Shown here one piece after another: positions 18,346-29,432 of a DNA stretch of 64,000 bases. Location: positions 1,348,175-1,412,174 of the forward strand of contig NZ_CP036425.1 in assembly GCF_007747445.1 (NCBI RefSeq). Reading direction: 5' to 3'. The stretch is from Poriferisphaera corsica (lineage in GTDB: Bacteria; Planctomycetota; Phycisphaerae; Phycisphaerales; Phycisphaeraceae). The position numbers and the translations under genes were made by a program. The notes under the pieces were generated by a model. That model saw only the letters and a program-made list of their open reading frames with translations, was not told where the DNA came from and searched no databases. How positions within the stretch are numbered: the stretch's first letter is position 1; each line of letters opens with the position of its first letter.

Positions 18346-18374
18346 CAAGTCCACCACCGCCGGTGGTGGGGTGT
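18346..18374 (+). repeat. Palindrome family 1, copy R1 (forward)
   Basis: The lead CAAG is followed by a perfect 9-bp-arm palindrome, CCACCACCG / CGGTGGTGG with a single central C, then GGTGT. Seven copies with different but self-complementary arms occur in the window (R1 to R7). Confidence 0.8.
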
Positions 18375-18414: not shown

Positions 18415-18449
18415 CGCAATTCAAATAGCTGCGAGCTTACAGCTCGCAG
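18415..18449 (+). repeat. Hairpin family 2, copy S1
   Basis: The lead GCAATTCAAATAG runs into hairpin CTGCGAGCT / AGCTCGCAG with loop TAC. The lead is shared with S2 to S6 while the stem sequence differs. Confidence 0.75.
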
Positions 18450-18487
18450 ACTCTTGATTGTCCGAACCAACGACACACTATAGTGAC

Positions 18488-18522
18488 ACAACTCAAAACT
18501 AGCCGCCGATCCAAGATCGGCG
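18488..18522 (+). repeat. Hairpin family 2, copy S2
   Basis: The lead ACAACTCAAAACTAGC is followed by hairpin CGCCGATC / GATCGGCG with loop CAA. Confidence 0.75.
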
Positions 18523-18573
18523 CGCCCTCAACCCTCACCACCTCACACCGTTTCTACAAACTGTCTTATATCC

Positions 18574-18609
18574 TGCAACTCAAAATAGCTGCGACCTGAC
18601 AGGTCGCAG
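18574..18609 (+). repeat. Hairpin family 2, copy S3
   Basis: The lead TGCAACTCAAAATAG is followed by hairpin CTGCGACCT / AGGTCGCAG with loop GAC. Together with R1, S1 and S2 it fills most of the 325-base gap after folD. Confidence 0.8.
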
Positions 18610-18643
18610 GAAGCATCAAACCTTAATACTCGCAACCTCATCA

Positions 18644-19147
18644 TCACCCATCCATCACCGCCAAAAACTCGTCCGTCTCATCCGGCGAAATCACATACTT
18701 CCGCTTATGCGTTTCGATCAAAATTAGATGCTCTCGATTGTTGCCGTAAGACGAAAAATTCTTAAGTGTCGGATTATAAAACCAACCAAAATATCCAAAC
18801 AATCCGCCGCATCCAAACGTGCGAATCGTCCTTCTCATATCCTTCTTTTCCAGCTCACGTACTTCTGAAATCTCATCCCGACCAATACGCACATTAGCCC
18901 CCCATCGACGGATCACCACCTCATTCGCATCAACCGTGTAATACCGCGGTGCAAACCATGCGCATATCGCCAAGAAAAACCCACCAATAAATAACGCGAT
19001 CCCAAAATATAACCACGCATTCCCCGACCCCTCATCCAAATGCTTCAACAGCACCAATACTGCGACGCCCAAAACCAGCAACACCACAAACGCCGTGATA
19101 CCCTTAGTCAGCTTGTCCCACGAACTCCGAAATATCTGCTTTTGCAT
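18644..19147 (-). CDS. Small membrane protein with bacterial PH-like domain
   Basis: A 167-residue protein. The ATG at 19147 is chosen because GAGGTTAG lies about 8 bases upstream; the frame is open for 39 more codons with no ribosome site. Two membrane segments lie at about residues 14-32 (ITAFVVLLVLGVAVLVLL) and 43-62. The remainder looks like a bacterial PH-domain protein: YYTVDANEVVIRRWG, EISEVRELE, a Gly/Phe-rich CGGLFGYFGWFY and YVISPDETDEFL at the end, a pattern shared with membrane proteins of the DUF304/bPH type. Function is unknown. It ends directly against the repeat cluster after folD. Confidence 0.7.
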   Translation of the reverse strand: MQKQIFRSSWDKLTKGITAFVVLLVLGVAVLVLLKHLDEGSGNAWLYFGIALFIGGFFLAICAWFAPRYYTVDANEVVIRRWGANVRIGRDEISEVRELEKKDMRRTIRTFGCGGLFGYFGWFYNPTLKNFSSYGNNREHLILIETHKRKYVISPDETDEFLAVMDG

Positions 19148-19377
19148 GCGTCTAACCTCGATAATCAGGATATCTGGTACAAAATCAGTATACCTCACAT
19201 CGGCGAAGCAATTCTGCGAAAAAGGTTGCCCCATTTCCCATCTGTCACGATATTCGCCCACCAATCCCCATTACCCAATAACCTCTCGGTTTGCCCAAGC
19301 AAAATCCGCCCAAATCCCCTAAAATAATGCATCAGGTTTTATTGACAGTTGGATCTGAAATCGCTGGATAATCTATT

Positions 19378-19437
19378 GACGCAAGCAGGTCGCTTGCGTC
19401 TTATCTAGCACTAGCACTAGCACTACTCACTAGCACG
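19378..19437 (+). repeat. Family 3 element: hairpin plus CTAGCA repeats, copy A
   Basis: A perfect hairpin GACGCAAGC / GCTTGCGTC (loop AGGTC) is followed by three tandem CTAGCA units, CTACTCA and another CTAGCA. It ends 5 bases before the next start codon. A related copy lies at 57199-57246. Confidence 0.7.
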
Positions 19438-19441
19438 AAAC

Positions 19442-20059
19442 ATGAGCCAGTTCAATACACAACAATACGACATCGAACGCCCCACCGGCCACTGCGCCTT
19501 CTCAAGCCGTCAACTCCAGCCCGGTGAATCCTACTACGCCACACTCGTTGAACTCACACCCGAGGAGATGGAGCAACTCGCCAAAACAGACAAAACCAAA
19601 TCCGCTCTCGGCCTCAAACGCCTCGACGTCTCCGCAGAAATCTGGGATGCAGGCAACCGTCCCAACAACCTCTTCGGCTACTGGAAAACCGTCGTCCCTG
19701 AACCCAACGCAAAGAAACGCCAATTCGTCGACGACACCGTCCTCATGGACATGCTCAAAAAACTCGCCCTTACCGATGACGCTGACAAGCTCGCCTTCCG
19801 CTACGTCCTCGCCCTCATCCTCATGCGCAAACGCCTTCTCCGCTACGACTCATCCACCAAACAGGAAATGGAATTCGAAGACGGCACCACCGAACTGCAA
19901 GAAGTCTGGACACTCACCCCAAAGCTCAACGTCAAGAAAGGCCCCATGTCCAAATGGGACGAAGACAGCAAACTCGAACTTTTCGATCCCAAACTCGATG
20001 CCGAGAAAATCGAGCAAGTCACCATCCAACTCGGCGACATCCTCAACGCTGATTTTTAG
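19442..20059 (+). CDS. Conserved hypothetical protein, probably planctomycete-specific
   Basis: A 205-residue soluble protein. Visible features are an N-terminal GHCAFSSRQLQPGESYYATLVE segment with one Cys, a central YWKTVVPEPNAKKRQFVDDTVL stretch, and the basic helix FRYVLALILMRKRLLRYD. The general layout (C-x4-R-x-L-x-PGE, VPEPNAKK, ILMRKRLLRYE-like helix) recalls an uncharacterised family I associate with planctomycetes; that is recollection, not a search. No membrane segment or catalytic motif is present. There is no Shine-Dalgarno sequence, and the CTAGCA repeat element lies immediately upstream, so it may carry the 5' control region. Codons end strongly in C. Confidence 0.75.
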   Translation: MSQFNTQQYDIERPTGHCAFSSRQLQPGESYYATLVELTPEEMEQLAKTDKTKSALGLKRLDVSAEIWDAGNRPNNLFGYWKTVVPEPNAKKRQFVDDTVLMDMLKKLALTDDADKLAFRYVLALILMRKRLLRYDSSTKQEMEFEDGTTELQEVWTLTPKLNVKKGPMSKWDEDSKLELFDPKLDAEKIEQVTIQLGDILNADF

Positions 20060-20123
20060 GTCGTCTTATCCAGCTTCCATACCCACCCCTTCCGGGGTGA
20101 GTTGCGGCGCATTTAAATAGCTT

Positions 20124-20160
20124 GGAACTCAAAATAGCCGCCGCGACACTTCGCGGCGCG
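20124..20160 (+). repeat. Hairpin family 2, copy S4
   Basis: The lead GGAACTCAAAATAGC is followed by hairpin CGCCGCGA / TCGCGGCG with loop CACT. Confidence 0.78.
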
Positions 20161-20191
20161 ACCGCAAGCCCTCACGACCTCATTTGCTCAT

Positions 20192-20220
20192 CAAGCCCAC
20201 GACCGCCGGTCGTGGGGTGT
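20192..20220 (+). repeat. Palindrome family 1, copy R2 (forward)
   Basis: The lead CAAG is followed by 10-bp arms CCCACGACCG / CGGTCGTGGG around a central C, then GTGT. The arms are perfect. It sits between family 2 copies S4 and S5. Confidence 0.85.
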
Positions 20221-20240
20221 ATGCAAGAAAAACAAAATTC

Positions 20241-20276
20241 CTGCAACTCAAAATAGCCGGCGAGCGACACTCGCCG
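20241..20276 (+). repeat. Hairpin family 2, copy S5
   Basis: The lead CTGCAACTCAAAATAGC is followed by hairpin CGGCGAG / CTCGCCG with loop CGACA. Confidence 0.78.
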
Positions 20277-20298
20277 TACCCACCACCTCACTCCTCAC

Positions 20299-20628
20299 TC
20301 AAGCTTCGCTTGTCTCACGATTGAATTGAGATTGCTCGACATTAGTACGTGTATACCAACTGTTGATCGCCGTATCGCAGATAGCACGAAATGCATAACT
20401 CAAGCCATACGTAATTAAACCACCAACCAACATGGTTATGCTAAACATAATAATTAACGTTTCGGTATTAGTTATTGTCGGAGTCCGTTCGCCTGAATAA
20501 ACGCCTGCATACGGTGGGGCAAACAGAGTTACAATGCCGCTAATAATCATAGCTGACCCAAGTAACTTGCTGAGGTAAATCAAGATAATAAGACGTAAGT
20601 AACGTGGAATTCGGTATGCAGTGGGCAT
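20299..20628 (-). CDS. Small two-helix membrane protein, unknown function
   Basis: A 109-residue protein. The ATG at 20628 follows AAGGATTAATTCA and is preferred over an upstream GTG. Two hydrophobic segments (about residues 12-35, LRLIILIYLSKLLGSAMIISGIV, and about 58-80, LIIMFSITMLVGGLITYGLSYA) predict a membrane hairpin with a short charged C-terminal tail. No family recognised. It is divergent from the metallo-hydrolase gene (59-base gap) and is flanked downstream by repeats R2 and S5. A+T content is higher than that of its neighbours, which may mean a different origin. Confidence 0.6.
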   Translation of the reverse strand: MPTAYRIPRYLRLIILIYLSKLLGSAMIISGIVTLFAPPYAGVYSGERTPTITNTETLIIMFSITMLVGGLITYGLSYAFRAICDTAINSWYTRTNVEQSQFNRETSEA

Positions 20629-20687
20629 TGAATTAATCCTTTTGACCCAAAAAGAAGACGCATTCATTGTAATGCACACTTAAATAT

Positions 20688-21464
20688 ATGAAAGTAATCT
20701 CTCTCCAATCCGGATCTAACGGCAATTGCATCTTCGTCGAAGCAGACGGCCTTCGTCTACTCTTCGACGCCGGTATCTCAGGCAAGCAAGCCCAACTCCG
20801 TCTCGCCGAACATAACATCGACATCAACACCGTCGACGCACTCATCATCTCCCATGAACACATCGACCACGTCAAATCCGCAGGCATCTTTCAACGCAAA
20901 TTCAATCTCCCCATCTACATCACCCCAAAAACATGGGCCACTGCATACAAACAACACAACCTCGGCCCTATCCACACGATCAATCACTTCGCTCCTGACT
21001 CCACCTTCTATCTTCCTAATAGACCCGATGTCGCCATCACCGCCATCCCCACCCACCATGACTGCATCGACGGCTCATGCTTCGTCGTTCAGCACAACCA
21101 AAAAAGACTCGGCCTCTGCACCGACCTCGGCCACGCATTCCCTGAACTAACCACCCTCATCCCAACCCTTGACGCGCTCATTATCGAATCAAATTTTGAC
21201 CCCGACATGCTCTCATTTTCCTCATACCCCATCCACACGCAGCGCCGCATCGCCGGCCCGCATGGCCACCTCTCAAACCACGAAGCCGCATCCTCGCTTC
21301 AATCCTACGCCGACCACACCAGCCTCCAATGGGTCCTCCTCGCCCACCTCTCAGAAAACAACAACACCCCCGATGTTGCCGCCAACACTCACCTCGACCA
21401 CCATACCCTCACCACCCACATCGCCTCCCGCCATCAGGTTTCCCCTGCCTATCACATCGACTAA
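20688..21464 (+). CDS. MBL-fold metallo-hydrolase (YycJ/WalJ-like)
   Basis: A 258-residue protein. LQSGSNGNCIFVEADG and LLFDAGIS start the fold, the metal motif is ISHEHIDHV (HxHxDH), and further histidines follow (PTHHDCIDGSC, DLGH, HGHLSNHEAA). The order and the opening SGSNGN motif match YycJ/WalJ-type exonuclease-like hydrolases, described as DNA-processing enzymes in Firmicutes. Here the role is inferred from fold only. No Shine-Dalgarno sequence is evident. It is probably independent of the lipoprotein gene 113 bases downstream. Confidence 0.85.
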   Translation: MKVISLQSGSNGNCIFVEADGLRLLFDAGISGKQAQLRLAEHNIDINTVDALIISHEHIDHVKSAGIFQRKFNLPIYITPKTWATAYKQHNLGPIHTINHFAPDSTFYLPNRPDVAITAIPTHHDCIDGSCFVVQHNQKRLGLCTDLGHAFPELTTLIPTLDALIIESNFDPDMLSFSSYPIHTQRRIAGPHGHLSNHEAASSLQSYADHTSLQWVLLAHLSENNNTPDVAANTHLDHHTLTTHIASRHQVSPAYHID

Positions 21465-21577
21465 TCTCACACCTCATAAACCCCATCCTTCGACCCAAGC
21501 GTCTATACCTATACTTACTTCGCTGCCTCAGCCGATATACCCATACATAAAGCCTCCTCGTCATACGGAACATCAGC

Positions 21578-22459
21578 ATGCAACGATCCAAACCCCACAT
21601 CCTCCCACTCCTTCTCTTCTGCCTCCTCACCCTCTCCGCATGCCAACAAACCACCATCATTCCCCAGCAGGACAAGCTTCTCCCGCCACCCATTAACACC
21701 ACCTCTTCCCTCTCCACCTTGGAACTCGTCAACAAGTACAACACCAACCTTCGAGAGCTCGATTACCTTCGTTCTAACGTCACTTTCGATCTCAAATACC
21801 TCGACGAGGACGGCGACGCCAATCACGAAAACGGCTCCGGTAACTTCTATTTTCAGCCTCCTCGCGACATAACCCTCGTCCTTAAAAAAGCAGGCATCGA
21901 AATCTTCTGGGCCGGTGCTAACCCCGAATACTATTGGCTTTTCGATCTCCACAGCGACAAACTCTTCTATGGCCAGCACAAGTTCGCATCCAACCCGCAA
22001 ACCCTTCAACTCGCCATCCCCATTCAGCCCCAAGACGTCGCCCAACTCCTCGGCCTCCAGCCCCTCGAACCCACAAACGGCGCAAACGTCGACACTATCC
22101 GCGGCTACACCGTCCTGCAATTCGTCAACACCAACTTCCGCTACTTCATCAACCCCGACACTGGCCTCCCCGCACGCATCGACTACCTCGACCCTATCAC
22201 CAGCACGCCCCTCATCACCACGCTCCTCACGCACGACAAAGCCTACACAGATCATTCCCCTTCACCCAACTTCCCCGCTGTCGCCGATATCTACGCCATC
22301 GATTCCGACGCCTACCTCAAGCTCCGTCTTCACGACTACACCCATCGCAAACCTAATCCACGTCTCTTTGATCTAAACGCCATGATCAAAGTCCATAAAC
22401 CCAAAGAAATTCTTCAGCTCGATGCTGATGTCCCCGGCTCTGATCCTATAACTAACTAA
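21578..22459 (+). CDS. Lipoprotein, LolA/DUF4292-like
   Basis: A 293-residue protein with a lipoprotein signal peptide: HILPLLLFCLLTLSAC, with the lipobox LSAC and modified Cys near residue 21. The body contains beta-rich segments (NVTFDLKYLDEDGD, GNFYFQPPRDITLVLKKAG, TGLPARIDYLD) similar in style to LolA/LolB-fold lipid carriers such as DUF4292 proteins. The fold assignment is tentative. It is presumably anchored in a membrane facing the periplasm. It ends at a clear terminator convergent with ispH. Confidence 0.7.
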   Translation: MQRSKPHILPLLLFCLLTLSACQQTTIIPQQDKLLPPPINTTSSLSTLELVNKYNTNLRELDYLRSNVTFDLKYLDEDGDANHENGSGNFYFQPPRDITLVLKKAGIEIFWAGANPEYYWLFDLHSDKLFYGQHKFASNPQTLQLAIPIQPQDVAQLLGLQPLEPTNGANVDTIRGYTVLQFVNTNFRYFINPDTGLPARIDYLDPITSTPLITTLLTHDKAYTDHSPSPNFPAVADIYAIDSDAYLKLRLHDYTHRKPNPRLFDLNAMIKVHKPKEILQLDADVPGSDPITN

Positions 22460-22487
22460 TAGTTAGTCCGACCACCTCCAAAAATAA

Positions 22488-22522
22488 AACCCCGCAGATT
22501 AAATCGACGGGGTTCTGTTTTT
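22488..22522. terminator. Terminator between lipoprotein gene and ispH
   Basis: Stem AACCCCG / CGGGGTT with a 13-base loop is followed by CTGTTTTTT on the + strand and preceded by an A-run, so it may serve both convergent genes. Confidence 0.8.
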
Positions 22523-22543
22523 TATTGTCGGGCACGTCAACGA

Positions 22544-23524
22544 TCACCCACAACCACACCCATTATTACCGTTACCTTTACCGCACGATTCCTGCAATAC
22601 CCTCAAACTCCGCGGCAAGTTGAAATGCACATCCTCTTCCACAATATGCGATTCATCCACAAGCCCTTCATACTTTTCAATCAATTCTTTAACGATCTCT
22701 TCAACCAGATGCTCCGGTGCACTCGCACCCGCTGTGATTAACACACTCTCCACCCCATTAAACCACACATGATCAATCTCTGAAACATCATCCACCAGAT
22801 AGGCTCGCGTCCCCGCATTCTCACTAATCTCCGTCAGTCGTACGCTATTCGACGAGTTTTTCGATCCCACCACCAACACCAAATCCGACTCCTCAGCCAG
22901 TGCTCTGACAGCTAACTGACGGTTAGTCGTTGCATAACAAATATCCTCACTTGGTGGCTGCTTAATCCCCGGATACCTTCGTTTGATCGCATCAATAATC
23001 ACATTCGCATCATCCATGCTCAGCGTCGTCTGCGTCAGGTAAACCAACTGTCCCTGTTCTTCTTCCGAGAATGGCAACTTCTCAACATCTTCCGGACTCT
23101 CAACGATTGAAAACGCATCCGGCGCCTCGCCCACCGTACCCACCACCTCATCATGCCCCGCATGCCCTACCAATAGCAACTTATACCCCTGCTTCGCATA
23201 CCGAATCGCTTCCATATGCACCTTCGTCACCAGCGGGCACGTCGCATCAATCATCGTGCAGTTACGCGCCTTGGCCGCACCCCGCACCTCAGGCGACACG
23301 CCATGCGCACTGAAGATCACCGTCGAATCGTTTGGCACCTCTTCTATCGAATCGACAAACACGACACCCTGCTTCTTAAAGCTCTCAACGACATGCCTGT
23401 TATGCACGATCTCGTGATACACATAAAGCGGTGTACCCACAATCTTAAGCGCCTCGTCGACCGTCTCGATCGCCATGTTTACGCCCGCACAAAACCCTCT
23501 TGGATTCGCTAGTATGATCTTCAT
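22544..23524 (-). CDS. ispH: 4-hydroxy-3-methylbut-2-enyl diphosphate reductase
   Basis: A 326-residue iron-sulfur enzyme for the last step of the methylerythritol phosphate pathway, giving IPP and DMAPP. The ATG at 23524 gives MKIILANPRGFCAGV, the conserved N-terminus; the frame is open for 130 further codons, but those are not IspH-like. The three cluster cysteines are in GFCAGV, ATCPLVTKVH and DICYATTNRQ. An odd C-terminal tail is rich in Cys, Gly and Asn (GKGNGNNGCGCG). It is divergent from the sigma factor gene. No clear Shine-Dalgarno sequence is seen. Confidence 0.95.
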   Translation of the reverse strand: MKIILANPRGFCAGVNMAIETVDEALKIVGTPLYVYHEIVHNRHVVESFKKQGVVFVDSIEEVPNDSTVIFSAHGVSPEVRGAAKARNCTMIDATCPLVTKVHMEAIRYAKQGYKLLLVGHAGHDEVVGTVGEAPDAFSIVESPEDVEKLPFSEEEQGQLVYLTQTTLSMDDANVIIDAIKRRYPGIKQPPSEDICYATTNRQLAVRALAEESDLVLVVGSKNSSNSVRLTEISENAGTRAYLVDDVSEIDHVWFNGVESVLITAGASAPEHLVEEIVKELIEKYEGLVDESHIVEEDVHFNLPRSLRVLQESCGKGNGNNGCGCG

Positions 23525-23913
23525 AGACAACATCTTACATCCCATCACCCTCACCAGCCACTCCTGCATTTTCCCCATAAAACCCTTACAAACCTCACAC
23601 AAGACACCACCCACCTCTGTTCCCCTTGTGCGCTCTATAACGATCCCATACGCCCCTTTTTCCCCCCCATCCCGACCATCCCGCACAATCCTCGCCCCCG
23701 ATAAGCAACTTTCCCCTAACACTGCAAAGCCCATTAAGCACGCAACACAACTTCCCGATCCATTACCCAGATACAAACGCCCATGCTCGTATGCAGGGCG
23801 ACAAAGTGGAGCAGGAACCGATCCAGGCCGCGCATCAACGTCTTTCCCGATGTCGCGCCTCTCGCTCATGTTCATACAACAACATGCGCAATCGGTGACG
23901 ATGGGAAAATACA

Positions 23914-24795
23914 ATGGCTAAAGGTCAATTGAAAAGCGATCTCGCCCTATATCTCAAGCAAATCGATGAGTCACCTCTCCTAACCGCCGATCAGGAGAAA
24001 GATCTCTGTCGTAAAATCATCCATCAAAACTGCCCCGCAGCACGCGAGCACATGATCCGCTCCAACCTGCGCCTCGTCGTCTCAGTTGCCAAAAAATACA
24101 ATCGGCGAGGACTCCCACTTCAAGACCTCATCGAAGAAGGTAACCTCGGCCTACTCCGCGCCGTCGAAGGCTTTGACCCTGAAATGGGCGCGCGATTCTC
24201 AACCTATGCCTGCTGGTGGATCAAGCAAGCCATCAAACGCGCACTCATCAACGCCGTTCAGCCCATCCACATCCCAGCCTACATGGTTGAACTCATCGCC
24301 AAGTGGAAACGCGCCTCACGCGATCTCGAAGAAACCCTCGGCCGCCAACCCAACGTCAACGAGCTCGCTGAACACATGGAACTCCCAGCCAAGAAAATTA
24401 AAATCATTCACAAAGCCGTCCGTGCCGCTCAACGCCCCTCACAAAACGGCTCAGGCGATGATGGCGAAGCGCCAACACTCTCCGAACTCATCTCTGATAC
24501 CCGCACACTCGCACCAGACCAACAACTCGCACTCAATGACGATCTGGACACAATCTCGCAGCTTCTCGAAGTCATCGACGATCGCGAAGCAACCATCCTC
24601 CGTCTCCGCTACGGCCTCGATGACCACGAGCCTATGACGCTCAAAGAAATCGGCCAGCACATCGGCCTCACCCGTGAACGCGTTCGTCAAATCGAAATCG
24701 AAGCTCTCAAAAAACTCAACGCCCGCATGTCCTCCAATCGCCCCCTCGCCGCCATCAAGGCTCGGCAACAATACCTCCAAAAACAAACCGCCTAA
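23914..24795 (+). CDS. RpoD-like sigma-70 factor
   Basis: A 293-residue sigma factor. Region 1.2 is [19 protein letters not shown]. Region 2 is [20 protein letters not shown] through [20 protein letters not shown], with the -10-melting aromatic residues intact. Region 3 follows, and region 4 carries the helix-turn-helix [19 protein letters not shown] for -35 contact. It lacks the long N-terminal region 1.1, so it is either a compact primary sigma or a group 2 paralogue; size favours group 2, or the short primary type found in some phyla. It is monocistronic, divergent from ispH, and ends at a strong terminator. Confidence 0.92.
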
Positions 24796-24866
24796 TCCCC
24801 CCCCCTCATCCCCTCCTCATCAACCCCACACACCTCAGAAATACTATAAAAACGAATCGTACTCCG

Positions 24867-24905
24867 CAGCACGTCTAATCATGACATAGACGTGCTGTTT
24901 TTTTA
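24867..24905 (+). terminator. Terminator after sigma factor gene
   Basis: A perfect 11-bp stem, CAGCACGTCTA / TAGACGTGCTG, is followed by eight T. The rest of the 340-base gap up to the nitrilase gene holds repeats R3 and S6. The stem core recurs in the hairpin at 29709-29747. Confidence 0.92.
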
Positions 24906-24953
24906 TCGCAACTATCCTCCTCCCACACATACCATTCTCTACAACATCCATCC

Positions 24954-24983
24954 ACAAGCCCCGCACCGCCGGTGCGGGGGTGT
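24954..24983 (+). repeat. Palindrome family 1, copy R3 (forward)
   Basis: The lead ACAAG is followed by arms CCCCGCACCG / CGGTGCGGGG around a central C, then GTGT. The arms are perfect but differ from the other copies. Confidence 0.82.
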
Positions 24984-25011
24984 CGCCCCAACCGCGTTTA
25001 TAAAAACAATT

Positions 25012-25044
25012 CGCAACTAGCCGCCGCGACACTTCGCTGCGCGT
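25012..25044 (+). repeat. Hairpin family 2, copy S6 (degenerate)
   Basis: The lead TTCGCAACTAGC is followed by a stem matching S4 except for one G to T change in the right arm (TCGCTGCG). Confidence 0.65.
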
Positions 25045-26035: not shown

Positions 26036-26066
26036 CTCAAGCCCGCCACCGCTGGTGGCGGGGTGT
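26036..26066 (+). repeat. Palindrome family 1, copy R4 (forward)
   Basis: The lead TCAAG is followed by arms CCCGCCACCG / TGGTGGCGGG around a central C, then GTGT. One G-T pair lies next to the centre; the rest match. Confidence 0.8.
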
Positions 26067-29395: not shown

Positions 29396-29432
29396 TAGCA
29401 CACCCCACGACCGGCGGTCGTGGGCTTGATGG
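29396..29432 (-). repeat. Palindrome family 1, copy R5 (reverse)
   Basis: Read on the minus strand: lead CATCAAG, arms CCCACGACCG / CGGTCGTGGG around a central C, then GTGT. It is nearly identical to R2 but in the opposite orientation. The flank ATATTGATTGTG is shared with R6. Confidence 0.85.

Follow-up and report, generated by a model that had tools for sequence, protein, structure and literature searches.

We analysed a stretch of 64,000 nucleotides of Poriferisphaera corsica (contig NZ_CP036425.1, positions 1,348,175 to 1,412,174; hereafter the window), whose genome consists of a single contig (4,291,168 bases), and in it a set of short hairpin-forming repeats that we call family 2 (F2). 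The F2 repeats are repetitive extragenic palindromes (REPs), and they share intergenic regions with palindromes of another kind, family 1. The initial annotation described six plus-strand elements in which a constant part is followed by a varying, self-complementary stem, and all six were found as placed:

18416..18448, + strand: F2 element 1; lead GCAATTCAAATAGC (18416-18429), hairpin TGCGAGCT-TAC-AGCTCGCA (18430-18448)
18489..18522, + strand: F2 element 2; lead CAACTCAAAAC-TAGC, hairpin CGCCGATC-CAA-GATCGGCG (18504-18522)
18575..18608, + strand: F2 element 3; lead GCAACTCAAAATAGC, hairpin TGCGACCT-GAC-AGGTCGCA (18590-18608)
20124..20158, + strand: F2 element 4; lead GGAACTCAAAATAGC, hairpin CGCCGCGA-CACT-TCGCGGCG (20139-20158)
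20243..20276, + strand: F2 element 5; lead GCAACTCAAAATAGC, hairpin CGGCGAG-CGACA-CTCGCCG (20258-20276)
25007..25041, + strand: F2 element 6; lead CAATTCGCAACTAGC, hairpin CGCCGCGA-CACT-TCGCTGCG with one mismatch (25022-25041), the weakest fold

Each element consists of a lead with TAGC at its 3' end, followed by a stem of 7-9 bp and a loop of 3-5 nt. Scanned with a covariance model and no filter, the 64-kb window gives these six as its top six matches, at 40.7 to 15.5 bits and all in one orientation, the training set of the model having included four of them. Folding as single-stranded DNA is better than in all 200 shuffles for five of the hairpins (z -3.56 to -6.07) and unexceptional for that of element 6 (z -0.81, with 44/200 shuffles equally good). 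The three clusters that the elements form are located between convergent open reading frames (ORFs). We saw no T run 3' of the six hairpins (the sequence was read directly and no terminator scan was made), that is, they do not have the GC hairpin plus T run of an intrinsic terminator, and an Rfam search of the window returned two tRNAs only.

The truly constant part of F2 is TAGC, with a weaker AACTCAA 5' of it, and this conserved foot stands directly 5' of the hairpin, as in other REPs. The long constant lead that was first taken as the mark of the family is a poor one. The 15-nt lead with up to three mismatches has six matches in the window against 2.05 expected (at least six in 1/100 shuffles), only three of which are F2 elements, and with up to two mismatches its 35+28 matches genome-wide show no enrichment over the 39+29 of a reversed-pattern control. 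The short head fares better: in a 464-kb sample (20 spread 20-kb stretches plus the window), ATAG and TAGC are enriched as heads of perfect hairpins, with 4 matches each, or 21-24 per 10,000 vs 1.5 overall, some of these matches being the window elements themselves. The commonest heads before perfect hairpins in the same sample are AAGC/CAAG and ACAC/CACC, which represent family 1 on its two strands, the A-rich AAAA, ACAA and AAAG, and ATAG/TAGC. The pairing of lead and hairpin was to be regarded as chance if the lead occurred genome-wide without a hairpin; this is true of the long lead, but not of the real head, TAGC.

The congener ZRK32 (G001 in our numbering, where G000 is P. corsica and other G numbers are relatives) gives the same picture when copies are found via the stem alone: AG stands directly 5' in 15/15 copies of the ZRK32 stretches and TAGC in 11/15, and in the P. 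corsica stretches TAGC stands 5' in 8/9, the ninth being element 3 on the opposite strand. Among 40 ZRK32 copies there are 12 different stems, and the first base of the foot is A in 53%. By eye, the common stem types in this set tend to have their own 3' tail and the leads are common across stem types; the conservation of the lead among these 40 copies is partly circular, as the model contains the lead, and the stem-only search is the repeat of the comparison that is free of it. Two further features of the ZRK32 copies were noted by eye. A block close to AACGATACGYTNNAGTGAAAC lies 5' of the lead in several of them (such as L288, L302, L303 and L320) and also at 18466-18489 of the window, and there is a second lead type, TTCCTGCAACTCAAG.

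The stems co-vary. One F2 stem pattern, with any two mismatches allowed, matched in 16 of 101 genomes. In relatives it gave 78 two-mismatch matches, of which 66 are a complete base-pair exchange where about 1% would be expected from random mismatches; many of these matches are mutual copies and thus not independent. In an alignment of 17 F2 hairpins from five genomes, 94.1% of cells are paired, a percentage inflated by picking for an 8-3-8 layout and few mismatches (the 78 matches were not picked for pairing), 45 cells are doubly changed and 7/8 pairs vary on both sides. The covariation score of this set was matched by 0/500 shuffles, and sliding the partner by 1-3 columns lowers pairing to 23-38%. 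Of the five measures, two are unexceptional: both-side change was as high in 90/500 shuffles, and the number of further pair types in 429/500.

F2 is not limited to 18.4-25.0 kb of the window, as had been claimed, since one stem type alone has 19 copies in the genome vs 0 for its control. With one covariance model at E ≤ 0.1, and scoring no more than 150 candidates in each genome, we counted 16 F2 copies in P. corsica, at least 126 in ZRK32, 102 in G071, 30 in G047 and 9 in G056, compared with 0, 1, 0, 0 and 0 in five genomes without the transposase gene described below. F2 is thus a short palindromic intergenic repeat present in many copies. Of the 19 copies of the one stem type, 18 were scored for ORF context (L067, with three mismatches, was left out); all 18 lie outside ORFs of at least 100 aa and 14/18 are downstream of a co-oriented ORF, which is the usual location of REPs, intergenic and downstream of genes (PMC3733652). 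Inverted pairs of F2, of the kind termed REPINs (REP doublets forming hairpins) or bacterial interspersed mosaic elements (BIMEs), were seen by eye in relatives at L142-L144, L153, L158 and L213.

Some F2 copies of P. corsica have further sequence in common. Those at L053, L062, L063 and L058 share 70-126 nt from the hairpin onward at 77-93% identity, other copies being without it, and this is possibly a longer non-autonomous element. At L062 and L063 (about 3425092 and 3542536 of the genome), another repeat, apparently with terminal inverted repeats (GAGCNNTTTGCATCA...), either adjoins or contains the F2 copy; in one of the two, this repeat is apparently inserted at the CTAG of the F2 head (both by eye). 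If the terminus is near 2.15 Mb, 17/19 copies of the one stem type share their orientation relative to the replication arms; this bias was not used as evidence, because the position of the terminus is a judgement by eye of sparse GC skew and because gene orientation is a confounder.

In relatives, F2 repeats flank genes of a divergent clade of REP-associated tyrosine transposases (RAYTs, also TnpAREP), which we call the F2-RAYT. Of 101 relatives, 39 have homologues at E ≤ 0.01, a count that takes in distant ones, and ZRK32 has two strong ones. Both ZRK32 genes are flanked by F2 units. One flank, turned round, reads CCTACAACTCAAATAGCCGCCGATCCACGATCGGCGCGCTC and is nearly identical to window element 2, ACAACTCAAAACTAGCCGCCGATCCAAGATCGGCGCGCCC, lead included; at the other gene an F2 unit with a different stem stands on the upstream side only. 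In G056, the gene at L198:3654-4121 (- strand) has F2 hairpins on both sides and in both orientations. We searched the 250 nt on either side of 35 F2-RAYT loci (the 36 strongest homologue matches minus one partial) for a TAG-headed hairpin. It is present at 27 of them, at 22 on both sides, against 3/107 distant 250-nt segments. For 16 further loci, those outside this set among 36 scored from a GTDB genome scan, the corresponding numbers are 14 and 9, against 1/67 distant segments. All 37 loci of the clade in the GTDB scan belong to Planctomycetota, the scan having used one peptide pattern of limited reach. In P. corsica, we found no match to one 155-aa F2-RAYT query at E ≤ 0.01 and no PF01797 match beyond its two Y1 genes. 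The second of these, L048, was considered as the F2 enzyme and rejected, as it is a truncated IS200-type remnant in which HVR replaces the HUH motif, with no F2 in the stretch read.

The F2-RAYT carries the HUH motif and Y1 fold of the Y1/HUH superfamily. H83, H85, Y143 and H147 are invariant in 19/19 members of the clade, and in the set of 36 loci every one has the HUH histidines and the aligned post-tyrosine histidine, and 35 have the tyrosine; in L232, the post-tyrosine histidine is two residues further along. A second clade (F1), that of the P. corsica gene at L047, has H99, H101, Y165 and H169 invariant in 19/19, and in a wider set the histidine is present in 20/21, with lysine in L116. 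Both clades therefore have a near-invariant Y-x-x-x-H and not the Y---NP context of TnpAREP class 2. Their profiles align with each other (probability 98.9%), tyrosine falling on tyrosine and histidine on histidine. The F1 profile aligns to E. coli TnpAREP (4er8, E 0.0023), with the histidine over the asparagine of YIYIN, and N119 of that enzyme is a metal ligand (PMC6006769). By sequence, the F2 profile reaches only the IS608 transposase (E 0.68), and PF01797 matches 17/19 transposases at E ≤ 1. The AlphaFold2 model of the ZRK32 F2-RAYT (predicted local distance difference test, pLDDT, 92.3) matches 28 PDB entries at E ≤ 0.001. Every one is a Y1/IS200-type transposase, with a TM-score by query length of 0.50-0.56, and 4er8, a TnpAREP/RAYT bound to its REP hairpin, is among them. 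The same relatives also carry Y---NP enzymes (L173, L178, L185, L192, L194, L196) and Y---HN ones (L182, L186, L193).

A further arrangement of Y1 domains was seen in three relatives, G056, G049 and G005, where a Y1 domain lies in frame within an ORF for a class I aminoacyl-tRNA synthetase (L198:4269-8252 on the - strand, L236 and L109, respectively). In the three of three ORFs examined, the domain has HUH and, by eye, a class-3-like Y----Q, and tRNA-synt_1 is split; L198 also has Val_tRNA-synt_C. The embedded domain is apparently bordered by translated REP-like sequence, and in eight more genomes Y1 matches fall in open frames that are 988-1373 aa long.

The two Poriferisphaera genomes differ in F2 at orthologous sites. 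The window from 14.7 to 29 kb is syntenic with 4.21-4.23 Mb of ZRK32 (the folD protein is 96% identical). Element 2 is present at the same site in ZRK32 with its lead and the same stem, and at the site of element 1 the stem is present with one base changed and without a recognisable lead. Element 3 is absent from its orthologous site. At the site of element 4 the lead AACTCAAAATAGC is kept and is followed by a different stem and tail, CGCGGACCTACGGGCCACGG-AAGCC; no element 5 was seen in a stretch that has diverged, and the site of element 6 (25018) has a different stem. Two ZRK32 copies in another syntenic interval are both missing from P. corsica. For reading empty sites at the level of bases, the flanks outside the folD and 20.1-kb regions are too diverged. 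Two elements occupy the same sites in both species, and therefore F2 is older than the species split. F2 would then be an older family that was active in the common ancestor and whose enzyme P. corsica later lost, the shared copies arguing for loss of the gene over its never having been present.

Five copies of family 1 lie in the window, against 0.02 expected (pattern AAGCC-N4-ACCGCCGGT-N4-GGGTGT with up to three mismatches):

18347..18374, + strand: family-1 REP, AAGTCCACCACCGCCGGTGGTGGGGTGT; absent from ZRK32
20193..20220, + strand: family-1 REP
24956..24983, + strand: family-1 REP
26039..26066, + strand: family-1 REP; the counterpart intergenic region of ZRK32 holds an F2 element instead
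29400..29427, - strand: family-1 REP

A weak palindrome, CACCCC-TTCC-GGGGTG, at 20082-20105, 5' of F2 element 4, does not match the family-1 pattern (z -1.18). Genome-wide, P. corsica has 84+68 (152) copies of family 1 vs 0 for the control and ZRK32 has 2, and in a comparison of 124 kb of P. corsica with 115 kb of ZRK32 the counts are 10 vs 0; with the ORF-context script used for F2, 5/44 copies fall inside mechanically called ORFs. Downstream of the Y1 gene at L047:1509-2051 of P. corsica lie two family-1 repeats, one direct and one inverted, and 12 of 29 homologue loci in relatives have, by our own reading, an AAGCCC...GGGCTT-type hairpin within 450 nt, the rest having none or another kind. 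Because of these flanking repeats and of the like hairpins at 12/29 loci, family 1 is probably the REP of the L047 RAYT clade. ZRK32 has no match to the L047 gene at E ≤ 0.001. The alternation noted in the window is that of two REP families which share intergenic regions and have a transposase clade each; by eye, 7/19 copies of one F2 stem type have a family-1 element in the 170 nt upstream in the same orientation and 12/19 do not. The two cultured congeners form a near-reciprocal natural experiment, RAYT 1 with many family-1 REPs vs RAYT 2 with many family-2 REPs, in which the older F2 persists as shared or scattered copies where its enzyme is missing, and this bears on whether REPs depend on a RAYT for their upkeep.

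Direct observations are the repeats with their co-varying stems, the presence of these repeats around RAYT genes of relatives, the congener among them, the lack of a detectable F2-RAYT in the P. corsica genome, and the F2 differences at orthologous sites. We consider, with a probability of about 0.87, that F2 is a REP family of short non-autonomous single-strand DNA elements, each a TAGC foot with a variable hairpin, that are recognised and moved by a RAYT/TnpAREP clade with HUH and Y-x-x-x-H. By analogy with the E. coli, Stenotrophomonas and Marinomonas enzymes studied in vitro (PMC8266576), the RAYT would bind the folded single strand via foot, stem and loop in a strand-specific manner, would cut near the foot via its tyrosine, and would join the hairpin into single-stranded DNA elsewhere, mostly between genes. 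By a count made by eye, 14/17 aligned F2 copies have a NAC loop, in keeping with reports of loop-specific contacts in group 3 enzymes. P. corsica would have lost the F2-RAYT after the split from ZRK32, leaving F2 copies that are now mostly relics, and family 1 and its RAYT would have expanded there. The initial annotation proposed a mobile or templated element, or a binding site plus structure. Mobility and a structured binding site are both right in kind, since in relatives the repeats stand next to genes for single-strand transposases, and their presence differs between sister species; we found no support for a templated element.

Several points weigh against this reading. The F2 foot is NTAG, not the canonical GTAG, and with A, C, G or T as its first base it lies outside the strict foot of the GTAG REP super-family (GTAG or GTGG). 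In P. corsica itself F2 is not abundant: the model finds 16 copies, and adding the 19 stem-type copies to the 11 listed from the model scan gives a minimum of 30 distinct sites. That model was built from G000, G001, G056, G071 and G014, so that G047 is the only independent positive among the genomes counted. The absence of the F2-RAYT from P. corsica means only the two search results given above. Of the 35 F2-RAYT loci, 8 have no TAG-headed hairpin by the criterion used, and at least one of these (L247) bears hairpins with another foot. Cleavage and movement of F2 are themselves predictions by analogy.

It is doubtful, and we suggest it only tentatively, that the lead is a fixed landing site at which the RAYT, cutting at the foot, puts the stem and tail of another subfamily in place of the resident ones while the lead stays, the enzymes being a Y1 branch in which the histidine of HUH plus Y-x3-H is the presumed third metal ligand. 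This exchange of hairpins is suggested because the orthologous copies at 20124 share the lead but not stem and tail, the stems at 25018 differ, and ZRK32 leads cross stem types. That F2 hairpins are instead RNA elements (terminators, stabilisers of mRNA 3' ends or processing sites) kept at gene ends, with the link to a transposase secondary, would account for the location of the 18 scored copies outside ORFs, mostly downstream of a co-oriented ORF, and for the three window clusters between convergent ORFs. However, no T run was seen 3' of the six hairpins, the congener has no copy, or one with another stem, at orthologous gene ends, and the repeats stand on both sides of RAYT genes in both orientations, which makes this explanation unlikely; an RNA role gained after F2 insertion is possible.

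Families 1 and 2 could also be parts of one composite element moving as a unit, as the 7/19 F2 copies with a co-oriented family-1 element upstream and the alignment of L058 with L066 over 107 nt (78.5%) might suggest, but we consider this very unlikely given the 12/19 copies without one, the many F2 and only two family-1 copies of ZRK32, and the separate RAYT clade of each family. Scarcely probable at all is an origin of F2 as ends or truncated copies of an insertion sequence (IS) of IS200/IS605 type with a classical transposase. The IS200-type fragment in P. corsica (L048, 39.9 bits to PF01797) and the better match in ZRK32 (97.2 bits) show that such elements are present, but no F2 unit was seen by eye beside the two P. 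corsica Y1 genes, none was seen in the 500 nt either side of the ZRK32 match, and the gene that F2 does flank is a divergent RAYT. Readings as an integron attC site, CRISPR or diversity-generating retroelement (DGR) were set aside without a dedicated test because the RAYT link explains the pattern.

REPs and RAYTs are already known, in Planctomycetes as well, where R. baltica is named (PMC3733652). Among the matches listed in a literature search (titles and abstract openings, with few subscription journals covered), there was no account of REPs in Poriferisphaera or the Phycisphaerae or of Y---H RAYTs. The closest counterparts of F2 and its transposases are the REPtrons of Stenotrophomonas maltophilia, GTAG REPs of the perfect-palindrome type with their RAYT/TnpAREP (PMC3733652, PMC8266576). 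F2 shares with these a short intergenic palindrome with a 5' foot and variable stem, several stem subfamilies per genome, a transposase gene flanked by repeats, a location mainly downstream of genes and, as judged by eye in relatives, some inverted pairs. It differs in its foot, which is NTAG with C after it (N often being A or G), in a longer lead around AACTCAA in Poriferisphaera, and in transposases with Y---H; the family-1 RAYT reaches 17.5 bits with the NCBIfam model REP_Tyr_transpos, whose cut-off is 80. Similar to IS200/IS605 elements (IS608, ISDra2), the system has the Y1 fold and presumably the same single-strand chemistry, but F2 hairpins far outnumber the gene and no IS with F2 ends was seen in the places examined. 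With TnpAY1 classes 1-3, both clades have in common the HUH plus Y1 core, the fold and about 60-66 residues between HUH and Y, whereas the contexts published for these classes are Y---Q, Y---NP and Y----Q (PMC6006769), the last being that of class 3, which is principally from Planctomycetes and has the foot CnGA. A Y---H group elsewhere in the supplements of that paper is possible. The Y-x-x-x-H enzymes point to a third metal ligand that is missing from the Y1 class descriptions consulted, and they are accompanied by clear substrates.

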